From positions 1 to 64,000 of the forward strand of contig JANYKT010000073.1 in assembly GCA_025358085.1 (NCBI GenBank): DNA of 64,000 bases. The letters are read 5' to 3'. This document shows, piece after piece, positions 50,908 to 63,359 of the stretch; within the stretch, counting starts at the first letter, position 1, and each line of letters begins with the position of its first letter. Both the position numbers and the translations under genes were made by a program. Under the pieces are notes generated by a model. That model ran no database searches, was not told where the DNA came from, and worked only from the letters and a program-made list of their open reading frames with translations. The DNA comes from Deltaproteobacteria bacterium (GTDB lineage Bacteria; Myxococcota; Myxococcia; Myxococcales; 40CM-4-68-19).

Positions 50908-51905
50908 TCAAGCAGTGGGGCGCCAACTCTGCAAGATTCGCATGTAATTCGCGCGGGAGAAGGCGTTCGGGTCGGGGCAGTGCGAGAGGCTCATGCTGCC
51001 AATCATCTGCTGCACCGACTCGTATTCATGCTCCTGCATCCAGCGCTCCATCTGCGCTCGTATGGTGCGCAGGTATTTAGGGCCGTGCTTGAGCAGCGCC
51101 GAGACCACCTGCACGGCGCTCGCGCCCGCCATGAGGGACTTGATGGCATCGATTCCGGAATGCACGCCGCCCGAGACGGCGAGCGGAATTTTAAGTCCGG
51201 GCTTGACGATGGCGAGCCAGCGCAGCCGCAACAACAGCTCGGACGGATCGGAGAGGTGCAGAATCGGCGCGGCCTCCAGGCTCTCCGCGCTGATATCTGG
51301 CTGGTAGAAGCGATTGAACAGCACCAGACCGTCGGCGCCCGACGCTTCGAGCTCGCGAGCAAAGTGTGGCAGCGCGGAAAAGAACGGCGACAACTTCACG
51401 GCAATGGGGATCTTTACAGCTTGCTTGACCGCGCGCACGACGTCCAGAGTGCGCCGCTCCACCATCCCGCTTCCTTCCGTGGGATCGGTGGCCAGGTAAT
51501 AGACGTTCAGCTCCAGCGCGGCCGCGCCCGCTTCCTCGACCTGTTTGGCGTAATCGAGCCAGCCCCGGGTGGTAATGCCGTTCAATGATCCAATCACCGG
51601 CACATTGACCGCATCGGAAAGGCGGCGGAGCTGGTCCAGATACTCGTCAGGTCCGAGCGAGAACTCGCTCGCCCTGGGAAAGTACGAGGTCGCTTCGGCG
51701 GAGGCCTCGGCGTGCGACTCGATCGAATAGATGGTGCCCGTCATCTCGCGCGTAATCTGCTCCTCGAAGAGCGAGTGTAGAATGATCGCCGACGCGCCGG
51801 AATCCTCGAGGATGCGCGCGACGTCGAGATTGTCGGCGAGCGGCGAGGCTCCGGGCATCAGCGGCGAGTCCAGCTTGATGCCCAGATAGCTTGTCTTGAA
51901 ATCCA

Positions 51906-51906
<1 letters not shown>
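50908..51906 (-). CDS. Dihydroorotate dehydrogenase-like flavoprotein
   Basis: A 332-residue TIM-barrel FMN protein of the dihydroorotate dehydrogenase-like group that accompanies pyruvate:ferredoxin oxidoreductase. Visible parts are LDSPLMPGASPLADN, VPVIGSLNGITTRGW, IPIAVKLSPFF, ADGLVLFNRFY and the FMN-phosphate segment IPLAVSGGVHSG. Its ATG overlaps the nifJ stop by one base, so they form an operon. It probably is not the pyrimidine-pathway enzyme; the real substrate of the group is not known to me. Confidence 0.87.
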
Positions 51907-55472
<3,566 letters not shown>

Positions 55473-55744: not shown

Positions 55745-57343
55745 ATGATTTCACCTTTGATTGGAGGCCCTTCGCGGCCGCTCCCGGCGCAGACTTTGCG
55801 AGGGGCTCTGGCGGCGCGCGGAAACGACGAGCGTCCCTGGCTTTCATTCCAGCGGGGGACCTCTTCTCCGGAGCAGCTGACCTTCGCCGCCGCGGACTTG
55901 CTGGCGCGGCGCTGGGCCCGGGTGCTCCGGCACGCGGGCGTCGGACCGGGCGACCGGGTCGCCCTTCTCCTGCCCAACGGCCCGGACTTCATCGGCGCTT
56001 TCTTCGGCGCGCAAGAGCTGGGTGCGACGCCCGTGCCGCTGCCCTGGCCAGTGGTGGCGATGGGGCCGCTCGTGCTGCCGGCCGGGTCCGCGGCAATCCT
56101 CTCGCTTTCGGCTGTGCGGGTCCTGATCGCCGCCGGGAAGCTCGAAAATTGTCCCGTTCCCGTGCTCACCCCGGACGCAGTCGAGCCCGCGCGGGCCGGG
56201 CCTTTTGAGGCGCTGGTGGACTCGCGCGCTCCCGCTTTCATCCAGTTCACCTCGGGGAGCACCGGCCGGCCGCGGGGCGTGGTGATCTCGCAACGCGCCG
56301 CCGTGCACAGCGCCTGGGCGATGACGCAGGCGCTGGGGCTCACGCGCCAGGACGTCGGCGTTTCCTGGCTGCCCTTCTTCCACGACATGGGCCTCGTCGG
56401 CGTGGTTCTCGCGTCGCTGCTCGGCGGCTTCCCCGTGCACCTACTCACGCCGGGAGAATTTCTCCTCCGCCCGCGGCGCTGGCTCGAGCTTCTTGCAGCG
56501 ACGCGCGCCACCATCACCGTCGCACCCAATTTTGCTTTCGATCTTGCGCTTCGCCGCGCCCGGCCTGTCTTTCCCGAGATCGACCTATCCGGCCTGCGCT
56601 TCGCGCTCAACGGATCGGAGCCGGTCTTACGCACCACCCTGACCAGCTTCGAAGCGGCGGGCGCCGAGTCGGGACTGCGGCGCGGGACCCTGCTCCCCGT
56701 CTATGGCCTCGCCGAGAACGGGCTCGGGGTCGCATTCCAGTCCGAGGGCGCGAAAGACCTCGACGTCACCATCGACGGGCGGCAAGTCCCCTCGGTGGGA
56801 GTGCCGCTGCCCGGCATGGAAATCGCAGTCCGCAAGCCCGATGGCGCCCTGGAAAGCGAGGGCGCGGAAGGCGAGGTGACCGTGCGCGGGCCGGCACTGA
56901 TGGATGGCTATTGCGCAGATCCGGAGGCCACCGCGCAGGCGTTGCGCGACGGCTGGCTGTGGACGGGGGACCGGGGCCTGGTCCTGAACGGACGCCTGCA
57001 CCTGACGGGACGCGAGAAGGAGCTCATCATCAAGGCAGGCCGCAAGTTCCACCCGGCCGACATCGAGCAGGTGGTGGCGACGCTGGTGGACGCCCCGCCC
57101 AATGGCGTCGCCGCTTTCTCCGTGCTGCGCGAGGCTGCTGGCGGAGAAGAGCTGGTGGTGGTGGTGGAGCTGCGCCGCCGGCCGGAAGGGGACGTGGTTT
57201 CGCGCATCCGCGGCCGCCTCTCGGAGGTGCTCGGCGTGATGGCCGACCGCATCGAGCTGGTGGGTGCTGGCGCCCTGCCGCGCACCACCAGTGGAAAGCT
57301 GCGGCGCAAAGAATGCATCGCCCGCTTCGGGGGGCGCGCCTGA
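55745..57343 (+). CDS. Fatty acyl-AMP ligase-type adenylating enzyme
   Basis: A 532-residue ANL-superfamily enzyme that adenylates a carboxylic acid and, given the downstream ACP, probably loads it on a carrier. The order of motifs fits fatty acyl-AMP ligases: FTSGSTGRPRGV near residue 168, SWLPFFHDMGLVG, YGLAENGLGVAF near 319, LWTGDRG near 405, LTGREKELIIKAGRKFHP, and TTSGKLRRKE near 514. No carrier domain is fused. The ATG has no strong ribosome site. First gene of a compact six-gene operon; the next gene overlaps its stop. The acid it activates is unknown. Confidence 0.88.
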   Translation: MISPLIGGPSRPLPAQTLRGALAARGNDERPWLSFQRGTSSPEQLTFAAADLLARRWARVLRHAGVGPGDRVALLLPNGPDFIGAFFGAQELGATPVPLPWPVVAMGPLVLPAGSAAILSLSAVRVLIAAGKLENCPVPVLTPDAVEPARAGPFEALVDSRAPAFIQFTSGSTGRPRGVVISQRAAVHSAWAMTQALGLTRQDVGVSWLPFFHDMGLVGVVLASLLGGFPVHLLTPGEFLLRPRRWLELLAATRATITVAPNFAFDLALRRARPVFPEIDLSGLRFALNGSEPVLRTTLTSFEAAGAESGLRRGTLLPVYGLAENGLGVAFQSEGAKDLDVTIDGRQVPSVGVPLPGMEIAVRKPDGALESEGAEGEVTVRGPALMDGYCADPEATAQALRDGWLWTGDRGLVLNGRLHLTGREKELIIKAGRKFHPADIEQVVATLVDAPPNGVAAFSVLREAAGGEELVVVVELRRRPEGDVVSRIRGRLSEVLGVMADRIELVGAGALPRTTSGKLRRKECIARFGGRA

Positions 57344-58338
57344 GGCCGCTCATCCTCGGCGCCGCCGGTTTCCTCGGCTTGAACCTGGTGGACGAGTTCG
57401 CAGCCCAGGGGATCGCGCCCCGCTGCGGGCGCCGGGTCCGCACCAACGTGCTCGAGCTGCGGCGCCGCAAGGTGACCATGGTCCAGGCCGAGCTGGACTC
57501 GCCGGAACAACTTGCCGAAGCGTGCGCGGGCGTCGACATCGTCTTCCATCTCGCCGGTCATTATCCGCGACTTTCGCTCGACTTGCCGGGCGCGCTCGAG
57601 ATGGGCCTGCGCCAGCTCGAACACGTGCTCGACGCGGCCGCCCGCGCAGGCGTGCGGCGTCTGATCTACGTCTCGAGCAGCGCCACCGCGGCTCCGCGCG
57701 ATTCGGGAAGTCCCTCGACGGAGGCGGACGTGTTCGATCGGGTGCCGGCCTTTGGCACCTACCACGCGCTGAAGTGGCACATGGAGGCGCGAGCGCTGCG
57801 CGAGGAGCGCCTGGAAGTGGTGGTCGCTTGTCCGGCCGCGTGTCTCGGACCGTGGGACTTGCGCGTGGGCACTTCGGCGCTGCTGGTGGGGACCGCGCGC
57901 GGCTTGCAGATCCCGCACCCGGACGGAGTGGTGAGCTGGGTCGATGCGCGCGATCTAGCGCTGGGGCTCTTGCGGCTGGCGCTTCATCCCGCGCCCCCGC
58001 GGCGCGTGCTGTTCTCGGCCGGAAGCCTGCGCCTGCAACCGCTCCTCGAAGATCTCGCGCGCCGCTACGGCGTGCCCGCCCCGGCGTGGCCCCTGAGCCC
58101 GGCCGAGGCGCTGGCCTTCTGCGACGCCGAAGAGTTTCGCGCGGCCCGCTACGGCGGCAGGCCCGCACTCGCCCGCGAGCTTGCCGACCTGATCATCCAC
58201 GGCGTGCCGCTCGACGCCGCCCTGGCCCGGGGCGCGCTCGGTATCACCTTCCGGCCGCTCTCCCAGACCCTCGACGCCTTCGACGATTGGGCGCGCCGGG
58301 TCCGCATCCTTCCTTCGTCGAAGCCTCTGGAGGCTTAA
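57340..58338 (+). CDS. NAD-dependent epimerase/dehydratase-type reductase
   Basis: A 332-residue extended SDR. It begins RPLILGAAGFLGLNLVDEF (Rossmann glycines), with IVFHLAGHYPR, YVSSSATAAP, the active-site TYHALKWHMEA (Tyr and Lys) and VSWVDARDLALGLL. No ATG, GTG or TTG lies near the fold's beginning. The CTG at 57340, which overlaps the ligase stop (CTGA) and follows a G-rich stretch, is the most likely start. The enzyme probably reduces or epimerises a keto or hydroxy acyl group within the pathway. Confidence 0.82.
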   Translation: MRPLILGAAGFLGLNLVDEFAAQGIAPRCGRRVRTNVLELRRRKVTMVQAELDSPEQLAEACAGVDIVFHLAGHYPRLSLDLPGALEMGLRQLEHVLDAAARAGVRRLIYVSSSATAAPRDSGSPSTEADVFDRVPAFGTYHALKWHMEARALREERLEVVVACPAACLGPWDLRVGTSALLVGTARGLQIPHPDGVVSWVDARDLALGLLRLALHPAPPRRVLFSAGSLRLQPLLEDLARRYGVPAPAWPLSPAEALAFCDAEEFRAARYGGRPALARELADLIIHGVPLDAALARGALGITFRPLSQTLDAFDDWARRVRILPSSKPLEA

Positions 58339-58343
58339 CGCCC

Positions 58344-58607
58344 ATGCGCCCCGATCCCACCGCCACCGTCGACGACCGCGTCCTCTACATCATCTCCCAG
58401 CTCGTCCCTGTGCAGCCCAGCCAGATCCGCGCCGAGCAGCGCCTGCGGGAAGACCTCGGGATGGACTCGGTGGGCTCGATGGAGCTGCTCTCGATGCTCG
58501 CCGAGGAGCTCGATCTCGACATCGGGGTCGAAGACATCACCGAGGTGCACACCGTCGGCGCCACCATCGCGCTGGCCAAGACTTTCCTCGCCAGGAAGGC
58601 AGGTTAA
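58344..58607 (+). CDS. Acyl carrier protein
   Basis: An 87-residue free-standing carrier. Ser42 in LGMDSVGSMELLSML is the phosphopantetheine site; acidic helices follow (EELDLDIGVEDI). It starts six bases after the epimerase gene. It is not the fatty-acid-synthesis ACP context (no fab genes), so it is presumably dedicated to this operon. Confidence 0.92.
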   Translation: MRPDPTATVDDRVLYIISQLVPVQPSQIRAEQRLREDLGMDSVGSMELLSMLAEELDLDIGVEDITEVHTVGATIALAKTFLARKAG

Positions 58608-58612
58608 GCCTC

Positions 58613-60214
58613 TTGTTGCCGCGCGCTGACGACGAAGTCTCAGGCCCGATCATCAGCCAGGTGCGCCGCTTTGCCGCCCGCGCCATCGACGCGCGCGCGA
58701 TCGATCGGGACGCGGCCATCCCGCGCGAAGTGCTCTCGGGCCTCGCTGAGCTGGGCTTGTTTGGACTCACGCTGCCCGAGGCGTTCGGGGGCTCGGGCTG
58801 CTCGCTCGCCACGGCCTGCGGCGTGATCGCGGAGCTGGCGCGCTTCGATCGGTCCGTGGCCGTCACCCTCGGCCTTCACCTCGGACTCGGCACGCGGGGT
58901 CTCACCGCCTTCGGGACCCGGGCGCAACACGAGCGCTATCTGCCCGGACTCGCGAGCGGGGCCTGCCTCGCCGCCTTCGCCGCCACCGAGTCCGGCGCCG
59001 GCAGCGACCTGTCCACCCTGCAGACGAACGCCAGCGACGTAGGCGCTGGCTTGCGGGTCAACGGCGAGAAGATCTACGTCACCAATGGCGGACTCGCGGG
59101 TCTCTACACCATCGCCGTCGCCACGCCAGGCCTGGGCGGGAGCGCGCGCGGCCAGAGCCTGCTGCTGATCGAGCGCGGCGATCCGGGCCTGCAGGTTGCG
59201 CCCGAGGAGCACAAGCTCGGCCTGCGCGGCTCGTCGACCACGGGGCTCGTTTTCGACTCGATGCTTCTGCCCCACGAGCGCGTGCTGGGCGAGGCTTCCG
59301 GCGGCGCGCGTGAGCTCGGCATCATCCTCTCCTGGGGCCGCACGCTCATGTCAGCGGGCTGCTGCGGAGCCGCGCGGGCCGCCCTGGAAAAGGTCGCATC
59401 GCACCTGTCCACCCGGCGCCAGTTCGGGCGGCCGCTCGCGGCGCTGGAGGTGGTGCGCGAGCAGGTCGCCCTGCTCACGGCGCGGGTTTTTGCCATGGAG
59501 GCACTGGTGGACGAGGTCTCGCGCGAGAGCGAAAAAGCGCTGCTGGTGCGCTCGCTCGCGGCCAAGGTCTTCAGCAGCGAGGGCGCCTGGGCCATCGTGG
59601 ACGGCGCCATCCAGCTGCACGGCGGGCTCGGCTTTATCGAGGACACCGGGCTCGCGCTGCTGCTGCGCGACGTGCGGGTCACGCGCATCTTCGAGGGAGC
59701 GAACGACGTGCTGCTCGCCCATCTGGGCGCGAGCGAGCTGTTGCAGACTTCGCCGCCGCCCCGCGCAGCGCTCTCCGAGGCCACCGCGAGCGCGGCGCTT
59801 GCGAGTGCGGCGGCAGCGCTTGCGAGTGCGTCCCCGGAAGCCCTTGCGAGTCCGTCCGCGGCAGCGCTTGCGAGTGCGTCCCCGGAAGCCCTTGCGAGTG
59901 CGGCGGCGGGAGCCGAGGCGCTCGCGCAGCAAGTGGACGCACTGCAAAAGTCGCTGCAGGCACGCTTCCGCATCGGTGTCTTCCGCCAGCCGCGCTGGCT
60001 GCACCGGCTGGGCGCGGCCTGCGTGTGGCGCGAGGCCATCGACGCGGCGCTGCGCCGGGCGCGCGCGTCCGGCCGCGCCGACGAAGTGGCCCAGGTCTCC
60101 TTGCTCACCCAAGCCGCGCGGGCCGCGGTGAGCACGCTGTCGGCCGAGCCGCCTCCCCGCGAACTTTACGACCTGTGCCTGCGGGAAAGTCTCCCGCGAC
60201 CCGAGGGCCGCTGA
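58613..60214 (+). CDS. Acyl-CoA (or acyl-ACP) dehydrogenase with repeat linker
   Basis: A 533-residue flavin dehydrogenase introducing an alpha-beta double bond. LGLFGLTLPEAFGGSG, AAFAATESGAGSDLS (flavin binding), GEKIYVTNGGLAG, RQFGRPLAALEVVREQVA, IQLHGGLGFIEDTG and the catalytic glutamate in RIFEGANDVLLAHLG are all there. From about residue 385 to 445 a linker of repeated ALASASPEALAS-like units precedes a C-terminal helical domain; usual members are about 380 residues, though larger ones exist. TTG start six bases after the ACP gene. Its stop overlaps the next ATG by one base. The carrier-bound chain is the likely substrate. Confidence 0.9.
   Translation: MLPRADDEVSGPIISQVRRFAARAIDARAIDRDAAIPREVLSGLAELGLFGLTLPEAFGGSGCSLATACGVIAELARFDRSVAVTLGLHLGLGTRGLTAFGTRAQHERYLPGLASGACLAAFAATESGAGSDLSTLQTNASDVGAGLRVNGEKIYVTNGGLAGLYTIAVATPGLGGSARGQSLLLIERGDPGLQVAPEEHKLGLRGSSTTGLVFDSMLLPHERVLGEASGGARELGIILSWGRTLMSAGCCGAARAALEKVASHLSTRRQFGRPLAALEVVREQVALLTARVFAMEALVDEVSRESEKALLVRSLAAKVFSSEGAWAIVDGAIQLHGGLGFIEDTGLALLLRDVRVTRIFEGANDVLLAHLGASELLQTSPPPRAALSEATASAALASAAAALASASPEALASPSAAALASASPEALASAAAGAEALAQQVDALQKSLQARFRIGVFRQPRWLHRLGAACVWREAIDAALRRARASGRADEVAQVSLLTQAARAAVSTLSAEPPPRELYDLCLRESLPRPEGR
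59790..59910 (+). repeat. Tandem repeat coding an Ala/Ser linker
   Basis: Repeated GCGCTTGCGAGTGCG and CCGGAAGCCCTTGCGAGT elements encode about six ALAS(A/P)-type units within the acyl-CoA dehydrogenase. Confidence 0.85.
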
Positions 60215-61503
60215 TGAAAGTCCTCTTCGTCTATCCGCGCTTCCAGCGCCACTCGCAGGCGCACCCGGAGCTGCTCGACTACGTGCCGATGAACGAATAC
60301 CTGGGCTCCCCCTCGCTCGGCTTTGCCTGCCTGGCGGCGCTGACCCCCGCGCACTGGGAGGTCGAGTTCCGCGACGACCGGCTCGCGCCCGCGGACACGC
60401 CCACCGACGCCGACCTGGTGGCCTTCTCGTTCTTCACCGCCGCGGCCGCTCGCGCCTTCGCGCTCGGGGACTACTTCCGCGCGCAGGGCAAGCGCACCGT
60501 GGCCGGCGGCATCTTTCCCACCGCCATGCCGGACGAGACGCAGCCGCACTTCGACAGCGTGGTGCAAGGCGAAGGCGAGGGCGTCTGGCAGCAAGTCCTT
60601 TGCGATGCGGAGACGGGGCAGCTCCAGTCGCGCTACGAGGCTACGGCCTGCGCGCTCGCCGCATTGCCGCTGCCCAAAGTGTCGCTCTACGTCGACCGCG
60701 AGGGCCCCGGCTTCGCTCCTGACGACTACCCGGTGCAGCTTTCCCGCGGCTGTCCGCTCTCGTGCCACTCCTGCATCCTGCCTCTCTCGATGAGCAAGAC
60801 ACTGCGCGAGTTCCCGCTCGCCCACGTCGTTGGCCAGCTCGATCAGCTCGCGAAGAGCGGCAAGCGGGCCTGCCTCACCGAGGACACGTCTTGGCTACCC
60901 GGCAAGGGAAACCGGCTGCTCTCGTCGCTCTTCGATCACCTCATCGCGAACGGCCAGCAGGCGCGCGTCAGCTACGTGGGCATCTCGATGCCGATGATCC
61001 TGGCGACGCCGCTTTCGCTCCTGCTCAAGGCGCGGCTGGCAGGCGTCGACATGTTCTATCTGGTCGGCGGCTTCGACCCCGTCACGCAGCGAGCGTTCAC
61101 CGGAGAGGATCCGCGGGCACTCGCGCGCGCGCACGCCGCCATCGCCAAGTGCCGCGAGGCCGGCATCGAGCCCTACACCTCATTCCTCTACGGCCAGGAC
61201 CAGGACGACGAAGGCACCGTGGACCGGATGCTCGAGTTCGCGGCGACCTCTGGAATCAAGAAGGCGGAGTTCGCCATCTTCACGCCGTATCCGGCCACGC
61301 CATCGTGGAAGCGCCTCGTCGCCGAGGACCGGATCCTCACCCGCGACTGGGGTCTCTACAACGACGCCAACTGCGTCTATCGCCCCGCGCAGCTCGATCC
61401 CGCGCAGGTCACGCAAGGCTACCTGCGCCTGTGGCGCGAGTTCTATGCGGACAAGCGGCACTTCCTCGCCGCGAGCTCGCAGGAGCGCACCATCCAGTTT
61501 TGA
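60214..61503 (+). CDS. B12-binding-domain radical SAM enzyme
   Basis: A 429-residue radical SAM protein of the cobalamin-binding type. The N-terminal about 130 residues have the Rossmann-like order MKVLFVYPRFQRHS, SPSLGFACLAAL, VAFSFFTAAAARAF and VAGGIFPTAMPDE. The [4Fe-4S] motif is SRGCPLSCHSC near residue 180 (CxxxCxxC). Then come LTEDTSWLPGKGN, FYLVGGFDPVTQRAF and FAIFTPYPATPSWKRL. The ATG overlaps the dehydrogenase stop; a longer open frame has no homology. Enzymes of this class methylate or rearrange unactivated carbons; here it may modify the acyl chain. Confidence 0.88.
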   Translation: MKVLFVYPRFQRHSQAHPELLDYVPMNEYLGSPSLGFACLAALTPAHWEVEFRDDRLAPADTPTDADLVAFSFFTAAAARAFALGDYFRAQGKRTVAGGIFPTAMPDETQPHFDSVVQGEGEGVWQQVLCDAETGQLQSRYEATACALAALPLPKVSLYVDREGPGFAPDDYPVQLSRGCPLSCHSCILPLSMSKTLREFPLAHVVGQLDQLAKSGKRACLTEDTSWLPGKGNRLLSSLFDHLIANGQQARVSYVGISMPMILATPLSLLLKARLAGVDMFYLVGGFDPVTQRAFTGEDPRALARAHAAIAKCREAGIEPYTSFLYGQDQDDEGTVDRMLEFAATSGIKKAEFAIFTPYPATPSWKRLVAEDRILTRDWGLYNDANCVYRPAQLDPAQVTQGYLRLWREFYADKRHFLAASSQERTIQF

Positions 61504-61531
61504 AGCGAATTGAAATTCAAAGGAGCAACCC

Positions 61532-62800
61532 ATGCTTTCACCGAACCGAACCCTCGATCACCGCCAGCTCTACCGCCTCCCGTGGACCGACGCGGACAAC
61601 GTGCTCTCCTGGCTCGAGCCGACCGCGAAGTGCAACCTGGCCTGCGAGGGCTGCTACCGGGAAAACCTGGACGAGCACAAGACGCTCGCCGAGGTTCGCG
61701 CCGATCTCGATGTCTTCAACGCCCACCGCACCTTCGACAGCGTCTCGATCGCGGGCGGCGAGCCGCTCCTGCACCCGGAGATCCTCAGCATCGTACGGAT
61801 GATTGCGAAGGACGGGCACAAGCCGGTCATCAACACCAACGGCCTCGCGCTCACCGAGCCGCTCTTGCGACAGCTCAAGGAAGCGGGCCTCGTGGGGTTG
61901 ACTTTCCACATCGATTCCAAGCAGGGGCGGCCGGGCTGGAAGGAGAAGAACGAGCTCGAGCTCAATGAGCTGCGCCTCGAGCTGGCGCGGATGGTGCGCC
62001 GGGTGGGCGGCCTCTCGTGCGCCTTCAATGCCACGGTCTACGAGGACACGCTGCAGTACGTGCCCTCGCTGGTGCAGTTCGCGCAGGACCACATCGACCT
62101 GATCGACGTGATGGTCTTCATCCTCTATCGCGCGGCCGTCAACGACGGCGAGTTCGACTTCTACCGCGAGGGCCGGAAGGTCAGCATGGCTCCGCTCGTG
62201 TACAGCGTGGATAAAGTCGAGCAGCGCCTCGACCTCAACGCGCGCGAGGTGGTGGGCAAGATCCGCGAGCGCTTCCCGGACTTCAACCCGAGCGCCTTCC
62301 TGGGCGGCACCGAGCAGGCCGACTCGTTCAAGTGGCTCCTCACCGGGCGGTTCGGCTTCCCCGCGCGCGATGGCGTCCCTTCGAAAATTCTCGGCTACGT
62401 GGGCCCGAAGTTCATGGAGTACGTACAGACTGTCCACCACGCAGTGACCGGCCGCTACCTCGCCTATGCACCCAAGGGCTCCATGGAGGCCGGCCGCTCC
62501 GCGCTGGCGCTCGGCCTGATCGAACCGGGCGTGCGGGCCACCGCGAAGAACTACTTTGCGAACCTGCTGCGCAGTCCACTCGACCTCTTCCGGCCGCTCC
62601 ACTACCAGTCGGTCATGGTGATCCAGCCCGTCGATGTGCTGGCCGATGGCCGCCAGGATATGTGCGACGGCTGCCCCGACGTGACCGTCCACGACGGCAA
62701 GCTGGTGTGGAGCTGCCGGCTCGAGGAATACCGGAAGCACGGCGGGCTGGTGCAGTGCCTGCCCAAGGGCTGCGCCGTGCCGCGGGTAGTGCGCAGCTAG
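61532..62800 (+). CDS. Radical SAM enzyme with Cys-rich C-terminus
   Basis: A 422-residue radical SAM protein. The cluster motif AKCNLACEGCYREN (CxxxCxxC) is at residues 34-41, GGEPLLHPE binds SAM, and VINTNGLAL and LTFHIDSKQGRPG follow. The C-terminus has further cysteines (MCDGCPDVTVHDGK, WSCRLEEY, CLPKGC), which may bind an auxiliary cluster. The ATG has AGGAG six bases upstream. The gene is 28 bases behind the B12-type enzyme. No exact family recognised; it probably acts in the same pathway on the carrier-bound product. Confidence 0.88.
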   Translation: MLSPNRTLDHRQLYRLPWTDADNVLSWLEPTAKCNLACEGCYRENLDEHKTLAEVRADLDVFNAHRTFDSVSIAGGEPLLHPEILSIVRMIAKDGHKPVINTNGLALTEPLLRQLKEAGLVGLTFHIDSKQGRPGWKEKNELELNELRLELARMVRRVGGLSCAFNATVYEDTLQYVPSLVQFAQDHIDLIDVMVFILYRAAVNDGEFDFYREGRKVSMAPLVYSVDKVEQRLDLNAREVVGKIRERFPDFNPSAFLGGTEQADSFKWLLTGRFGFPARDGVPSKILGYVGPKFMEYVQTVHHAVTGRYLAYAPKGSMEAGRSALALGLIEPGVRATAKNYFANLLRSPLDLFRPLHYQSVMVIQPVDVLADGRQDMCDGCPDVTVHDGKLVWSCRLEEYRKHGGLVQCLPKGCAVPRVVRS

Positions 62801-62873: not shown

Positions 62874-63359
62874 ATGAGTCCCGCTGGCGAAGCTCCGCTC
62901 ATGGATGGGTCGCTCGCCAGCGCGTTGCTTGTCTGCGTCGGAAATATTTGTCGAAGTCCGATGGCCGCAGTGCTCCTTGCTCACCGGCTGGCGCAGGGCG
63001 CCCAGCCGCCGCTCATCGAGTCCGCGGGCATCGCCGCCCTCGCCGGGCAGCCGGCGGACCCGCTTGCTATCGAGCTGATGAAAGCGCGCTCTCTGGATCT
63101 GTCCAGTCATCGGGGGCGTCAACTGACAGCCTCAATGGCAGCCCGGTTTGACCTGATCCTGGTGATGGAAGAGCGGCACCAACGCGCCGTAGAAAAGATA
63201 TTTCCGCCGGCCCGCGGCCGGGTTCACCGCCTCGGCCGCTTCGGCAACTTCGACATTCCCGATCCCTACGGCCAACCTCGCGCCGCATTCGAGCAGTCTC
63301 TCGCCTTGATTGAGCGTGGCATTGAAGACTTCGTCCGCGCGTTCTGGAGCGCCAGGTGA
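62874..63359 (+). CDS. Low-molecular-weight protein-tyrosine phosphatase
   Basis: A 161-residue phosphatase of the Wzb/Etp type. The P-loop is LLVCVGNICRSPMAA, preceded by a short N-terminal extension. SSHRGRQLTASM and the general acid in FDIPDPYGQPRAAFEQ complete the active site. Often such enzymes act on tyrosine kinases of capsule export, but no such genes are nearby. It is 73 bases after the radical SAM gene and may have its own promoter. An alternative start at the second methionine (62901) would remove the extension. Confidence 0.92.
   Translation: MSPAGEAPLMDGSLASALLVCVGNICRSPMAAVLLAHRLAQGAQPPLIESAGIAALAGQPADPLAIELMKARSLDLSSHRGRQLTASMAARFDLILVMEERHQRAVEKIFPPARGRVHRLGRFGNFDIPDPYGQPRAAFEQSLALIERGIEDFVRAFWSAR

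Follow-up and report, generated by a model that had tools for sequence, protein, structure and literature searches.

Near the downstream end of a 64,000-nucleotide stretch of genome from an uncultured member of the Myxococcota (Deltaproteobacteria bacterium, GenBank contig JANYKT010000073.1, positions 1 to 64,000; hereafter, the window), six genes lie on the plus strand between positions 55745 and 62800. It belongs to a draft genome of 5.4 Mb, 98% complete, in which it is contig C118. The packing of the six genes, with spacings of at most 28 bases, had been described in an initial annotation made from the sequence alone, and it is borne out by gene calls, Pfam and NCBIfam, with each assignment backed by both databases. 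The first gene (55745–57343) encodes an AasR-like fatty acyl-AMP ligase (FAAL; AMP-binding Pfam, 6.5e-64). It overlaps by 31 bases with the gene for an extended short-chain dehydrogenase/reductase of the HpnA/3beta-HSD/CCR-like kind (SDR; 57313–58338; Epimerase Pfam, 6.8e-18), which corresponds to “epi” of ceramide loci. (This gene most likely starts with the ATG at 57313, because the nearest relative opens with nearly identical residues; the alternative is a CTG at 57340.) Five bases further on is a dedicated acyl carrier protein (ACP; 58344–58607; PP-binding Pfam, 1.4e-10), with the codon for its phosphopantetheine serine, Ser42, at 58467–58469. After another five bases comes a flavoenzyme of the acyl-CoA dehydrogenase type (ACAD; 58613–60214) that resembles the very-long-chain enzyme (VLCAD); it starts with TTG and has the three ACAD domains and a catalytic glutamate, Glu361, encoded at 59693–59695. 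The ACAD gene overlaps by a single base with that of a B12-type radical S-adenosylmethionine (SAM) enzyme, here called B12rS (60214–61503; B12-binding Pfam, 8.5e-9; CxxxCxxC codons at 60751–60774), and 28 bases beyond lies a second radical SAM gene, rS2 (61532–62800; Radical_SAM Pfam, 1.2e-14), with its cluster cysteines at 61631–61654 and those of a C-terminal CDGCP...SC motif at 62663–62716.

The residues on which these enzymes depend are retained throughout the alignments. D41-S42 of the ACP is invariant (51/51 rows), the ACAD glutamate E361 is kept in 52/52 rows, and the SDR has intact GxxGxxG and YxxxK motifs, with Y140 and K144 kept in 38/38. Similarly, C180, C184 and C187 of B12rS are found in 55/55 rows, and C34, C38 and C41 as well as C378, C381 and C395 of rS2 in 18/18. 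Judged by motif, the set is activity-competent. Its gene content is naturally read as carrier-bound activation of an acid combined with a 2,3-dehydrogenation, a step in which the SDR would use NAD(P)H, and radical chemistry. One peculiarity of the window copy is a tandem repeat with a 24/48-base unit (59798–59914, plus strand, found with TRF) within the ACAD gene, which codes for an Ala/Ser-rich insert outside the conserved enzyme; the window ACAD, which carries it, has 533 amino acids, against 501 in the nearest relative (L065).

A conserved five-gene cassette and a facultative sixth gene

FAAL, SDR, ACP, ACAD and B12rS are together called the cassette here. Close orthologs of B12rS (at least 51% identity) occur in 16 of the 145 genomes of the order, and in most of these the other four genes adjoin it in identical order, with a rearrangement in one. 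Across 85,000 species genomes, 66 B12rS loci were found, essentially all in metagenome-assembled genomes (MAGs) and, by record title, none in an isolate. Nearly all of the carriers are Myxococcota or “Deltaproteobacteria”, with single records from Oligoflexia, Bryobacterales and an anammox-labeled bin. Among the 34 loci with sufficient flank, ACAD was found in 32, ACP in 31, SDR in 29 and FAAL in 28, and all four partners were on the same strand as B12rS in 25. There are two gene orders, ACP-ACAD-B12rS in the branch that includes the window and ACP-B12rS-ACAD in a sister branch. Since gene order persists to about 50% amino-acid identity across dozens of MAGs, the cassette is not a chance grouping. 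The five genes are a conserved cassette to which rS2 is a facultative addition; of the six-gene set that had been proposed, the core thus survives, and the sixth gene is optional.

How closely, then, is rS2 tied to the cassette? In the window and at L081, L082, L084, L087, L089 and L093, it is the gene directly after B12rS; at L068, one gene for a DAO-family FAD oxidoreductase separates the two, and at L177 (genome G105), rS2 is divergent and precedes FAAL, i.e., it sits at the opposite end of the cassette. Adjacency of rS2 requires at least five changes on the B12rS tree, and this speaks for a functional link that recurs. Twelve of the 16 cassette genomes contain rS2, compared to 22 of the 145 genomes of the order overall (Fisher p 8e-9 by genome and 0.0016 by genus, computed without species-tree correction). 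If rS2 were instead an unrelated neighbor, the five-gene cassette would function alone, which would still be compatible with the lipid-building role for the core that is proposed below; this would fit the finding that, of the 62 loci with room for it, only 7 have rS2 inside the 1.5 kb downstream and that it is solitary in many genomes. However, the recurrence of adjacency on several branches, including the divergent arrangement at L177, and the strong co-occurrence with the cassette speak for a connection, and considering the co-occurrence, locus and tree results together, we judge mere proximity to be rather improbable.

In genomes that lack the cassette, rS2 is often solitary, or it stands beside another B12-radical SAM gene or beside mtnP, mtnA, an aldolase gene or apt; neighbors of the latter kind are found in some cassette genomes, too. 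At L023, L173, L176 and L179, the rS2 homologs adjoin mtnP, mtnA, a class II aldolase gene and/or apt, and at L022, L023, L172, L173 and L181 they are near a distant B12-radical SAM gene (25–31% identical to the B12rS of the window). According to PMC6079011, genes of the mtnP/mtnA/aldolase/apt type recycle 5'-deoxyadenosine, a by-product of radical SAM enzymes. These salvage-type neighbors suggest that rS2 operates at high flux. Genes like those of 5-deoxyribose/5'-deoxyadenosine salvage adjoin these homologs, but the window operon itself has none of them.

Other genes recur near the cassettes. A DAO-type FAD oxidoreductase gene is found directly 3' of B12rS in genus g46 (L063, 1449–2546; also L052 and L054). 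Crp/Fnr-type regulators with Cys-rich N-termini are encoded near cassettes (L069, L071, L072 and L073) and near rS2 genes (L172, L174, L176, L179 and L181), and expression may be coupled to oxygen through them.

Genes resembling those of ceramide loci in and around the cassette

The order FAAL-SDR-ACP in the window is that of aasR-epi-acpR, upstream of spt, in the ceramide locus of Escherichia coli BL21(DE3). Bacterial loci of this type (aasR-epi-acpR-spt, plus bCerS/yghO, the gene for a ceramide N-acyltransferase) comprise ECD_02850-02854 in BL21(DE3) and CC_1162-1165/1154 in Caulobacter, and in the window, as there, a FAAL-type acyl-ACP synthetase stands beside an SDR of the epimerase type and an ACP of its own. 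The top NCBIfam model for the window FAAL is PRK09192 (316 bits, under the cut-off of 600), which is likewise the top model for BL21 AasR (870 bits); the two proteins are 31% identical (5e-70), and the best PDB matches of the window protein are FAALs. The SDR has HpnA as its top model, at 121 bits and far under the cut-off, and BL21 epi matches the HpnA model alone. Of the “epimerase/reductase” in the initial annotation, an HpnA/3beta-HSD-like reductase remains, with no specific evidence for a sugar epimerase. (A hopanoid pathway was also considered and rejected; SDR, rS2 and B12rS each match Hpn models, but far below cut-off.) AasR loads palmitate onto AcpR and not onto CoA, and acyl-AcpR is the preferred substrate of serine palmitoyltransferase (SPT) (PMC9386255). 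Since the window trio matches aasR-epi-acpR both in order and in nearest family, its context is lipid- or sphingolipid-like rather than that of an orphan pathway. Unlike the ceramide locus, the window operon has no spt, it includes ACAD, B12rS and rS2 in addition, and its SDR and ACP are only distantly similar to their counterparts.

Some relatives come closer to a ceramide locus. At four sister-branch loci, L113, L114, L117 and L119, the order is FAAL-ACP-B12rS-ACAD followed by an alpha-oxoamine synthase (AOS) gene (the start of FAAL is out of view in L114). These AOSs are 33–37% identical to BL21 Spt, and in the two that were tested, the top NCBIfam model was that of SPT, below its cut-off. 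Two of the four loci, L113 and L119, have a YghO/bCerS homolog (34–35% identity) in addition, and the AOS-adjacent loci cluster together on the B12rS tree. A gene for a type II beta-ketoacyl-ACP synthase (KAS II) lies near six other cassettes. In L126, from Bryobacterales, B12rS directly precedes a polyketide synthase (PKS) fused to an AOS, and the AOS part shares 52% identity with the corresponding part of the PKS-AOS in the window's own genome, which has the architecture KS-AT-KR-DH-AOS. The cassette, or at least B12rS, is found repeatedly next to enzymes for the condensation of acyl thioesters and amino acids. The absence of PKS, nonribosomal peptide synthetase (NRPS) and fab genes, as originally stated, holds for the window, but relatives carry KAS, AOS or PKS genes close by. 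In a set of 40 chosen genomes, PKS-AOS was present in 14 of 15 with the cassette versus 5–7 of 25 others. The window's genome also encodes a bCerS-type homolog (G000:C88; 42% identical to the L113 protein), of a kind that is found in cassette-free genomes as well.

Our preferred reading, with a probability of about 0.5, is that this is a lipid-building operon of uncultured Myxococcota, in which a loaded acyl chain would be dehydrogenated, radically modified and passed to an AOS to give a sphingolipid-like lipid.

Some observations concern the surroundings of the AOS genes. In the branch that has Spt, the cassette is preceded by a CaiB-type CoA-transferase gene (L113, L114, L117, L119 and L120). 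PKS-AOS genes of the KS-AT-KR-DH-AOS type lie at L165 (8444–14419), L166 (9047–16525) and L191–L195; in five genomes of family f4, PKS-AOS is clustered, as read by eye, with bCerS-like (GNAT) acyltransferase genes, an AMP-ligase-like gene of its own (630 amino acids) and a cyclopropane-synthase-like methyltransferase gene. This looks like a PKS-type long-chain-base cluster; we know of no description of such a cluster. ElbD was set aside as a comparison, since the domain layout given in PMC9131029 has no AOS.

The dehydrogenase and the radical SAM enzymes

The best PDB match of ACAD is human VLCAD, a long-chain enzyme, over residues 13–486 with the C-terminal region included (4e-68). This bears on two alternatives in which the cassette would serve specialized metabolism. 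In the first, an unsaturated, methylated acyl-ACP would be made as a starter unit and would prime a PKS or NRPS encoded elsewhere, much as in the mycobactin genes mbtL-mbtM-mbtN, with a B12 methylase added. As there, an ACP, a FAAL and an ACAD would act on an ACP-bound fatty chain, and the MbtM model gives the window FAAL 257 bits; the B12 methylase CysS has been solved with carrier-type substrates (pantetheinylated, by the structure titles), KAS genes occur near some cassettes and the PKS-AOS of L126 comes directly after B12rS. However, ACAD is far closer to VLCAD (234 bits) than to MbtN (48 bits) and belongs to another subfamily, the window operon adds an SDR as well as two radical SAM enzymes, and no NRPS was noticed beside the cassettes, nor any modular PKS except in L126. 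Persistence over such deep divergence is also more typical of lipid genes than of secondary metabolism, and we consider a starter-unit role quite unlikely. The second alternative is a pyrrole-carboxyl module of the CloN3-N6 type, with an amino-acid ligase, a peptidyl carrier protein (PCP), an ACAD and a B12 methylase working on prolyl- or pyrrolyl-S-PCP. CloN3-N6 comprise the same four enzyme classes as the cassette, and ACAD does match RedW (181 bits). But the ligase is of the FAAL type and not an L-prolyl-PCP ligase, ACAD matches VLCAD and AcrC best, and the genes stand in a lipid context; with both ligase and dehydrogenase of the wrong type, a CloN/RedW module was rejected as most improbable. 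A long-chain substrate is what the preferred reading, a sphingolipid-like product, would call for.

B12rS has an N-terminal B12-binding Rossmann domain (Pfam B12-binding above cut-off) followed by a CxxxCxxC barrel, in a confident AlphaFold model (pLDDT 93.6). By family profile, MgmA is its best match, followed by AprD4, CysS and TokK; by fold, the best are AprD4, MgmA and TsrM, with CysS, OxsB and TokK also matching. B12rS thus resembles the B12-dependent radical SAM C-methylases MgmA, CysS and TokK, and also AprD4, in fold and in its CxxxCxxC cluster, but it is a separate family, with only 12–19% identity in the fold alignments. By profile and fold, B12rS is likely to methylate its substrate, and this, like the pantetheinylated substrates in the CysS structures, speaks for the preferred reading.

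The second radical SAM gene was correctly noted from the outset, but its product is not a generic member of the superfamily, the nearest solved relative being the lipid-coupling archaeal tetraether lipid synthase Tes (MJ0619). In the profile search, Tes (7TOL) is the best match at 6.5e-14, about eight orders ahead of the next, and 7TOL/7TOM also top the fold search (E 1e-10, TM 0.50), in which the rS2 model used was only fair (pLDDT 64). The likeness is to the radical SAM core; the C-terminal CDGCP...SC region, a conserved motif that probably binds a further cluster, does not align with Tes. With 56.9 bits against a cut-off of 450 for the curated Tes model NF045702, and a match over residues 23–194 only, rS2 was rejected as Tes proper and can be called only Tes-like.

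This kinship raises the alternative that the operon makes a membrane glycerolipid: a chain on the ACP would be methyl-branched by B12rS and then coupled or cross-linked by rS2, giving branched or membrane-spanning lipids. The co-occurrence of rS2 with the cassette would agree with this, as would the position of several rS2 genes beside 5'-deoxyadenosine-recycling gene types (PMC6079011), expected of a high-turnover radical SAM enzyme, and Myxococcota are among the suggested producers of branched glycerol dialkyl glycerol tetraethers in the Black Sea (PMC11868695). On the other hand, rS2 aligns with Tes over the core alone and far below the model cut-off, many cassettes have no rS2, and the cassette includes no function that forms ether bonds. 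A glycerolipid product would also leave the Spt and bCerS genes of the sister branch unexplained, and on balance we find it unlikely.

Proposed pathway and neighboring genes

What would a sphingolipid-like pathway look like? As its family suggests, FAAL would convert a long-chain fatty acid via the acyl-AMP to the acyl form of the dedicated ACP. From family and motif, the VLCAD-like ACAD would then generate the 2,3-enoyl-ACP, and B12rS, going by its nearest structures, would modify the chain while it is held on the ACP, most likely through methylation. Once complete, the acyl-ACP would be handed to an AOS, which in the sister branch would be the stand-alone Spt homolog, as the context there suggests, and which for the window's genome could be the PKS-fused AOS on contig C3. 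The AOS would condense the acyl chain and an amino acid; the resulting 3-keto group would be reduced by the SDR, given its “epi” position, to yield a sphingoid-like base. Where present, rS2 would act on the lipid in an additional radical step like that of Tes. If the enoyl-ACP were condensed with serine, the acyl C2=C3 double bond would become C4=C5 of the base, which is the position in sphingosine, with no need for an oxygen-dependent desaturase. In its most explicit form, the proposal is a sphingolipid-like lipid made independently of oxygen, its chain dehydrogenated on the carrier and tailored by both radical SAM enzymes, B12rS introducing methyl branches and rS2 acting on C-C bonds in the manner of Tes, so that unsaturated and branched sphingoid lipids would result; this full version we regard as possible but doubtful.

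Several observations count against the preferred reading. The chief weakness is that the window operon has no AOS: neither an AOS nor an Spt or bCerS gene adjoins the window's cassette or most cassettes of its clade. In the window's genome, the only AOSs are a BioF-like one, encoded next to a bioA-like gene, and the PKS-fused one on contig C3, which would therefore have to be the partner. PKS-AOS is found without the cassette in five members of the window's own family, and the f4 PKS-AOS cluster, with its own AMP-ligase-like gene, may not need the cassette. Similarly, rS2 is present without the cassette in ten genomes of the order, and the co-occurrence tests for PKS-AOS and rS2 are confounded by descent. 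The identities of the window SDR to BL21 epi (25%) and of the ACP to AcpR (29%) are weak and unspecific. Finally, AprD4, which heads the fold matches of B12rS, is a dehydratase and not a methylase, so that the use of cobalamin by B12rS is putative.

The trio and each of the enzyme classes are known; no paper searched describes an acyl-ACP operon in which they are combined with both a B12-radical SAM and a Tes-like enzyme. The earlier statement that no described pathway has exactly this set stands insofar as the PMC literature, which leaves most subscription journals outside its coverage, contained no published cluster with it, nothing on the combination of FAAL, ACAD, ACP, radical SAM and cobalamin, and nothing relevant linking SPT to radical SAM; it needs amending in that the first three genes match aasR-epi-acpR. 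Because essentially all carriers are MAGs, the lipid has probably never been observed. If the proposal is true, it would illustrate a way for bacteria to form Delta4-type and branched sphingoid bases without an oxygen-dependent desaturase, a Tes-like radical enzyme would be tied to a carrier-protein pathway, and the operon would be a candidate source of branched soil and water lipids that lack an explanation.

A scan for promoters and terminators gave no signal above shuffled sequences. Two neighbors were rejected as operon members: a low-molecular-weight phosphatase gene (62874–63359), which does not recur beside other cassettes, and a pyruvate:ferredoxin oxidoreductase (PFOR)-like gene, not seen next to other cassettes either. 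The latter is located, together with a dihydroorotate dehydrogenase-like gene, at 50908–55472, divergent from the operon, for which the pair could be a source of low-potential electrons.

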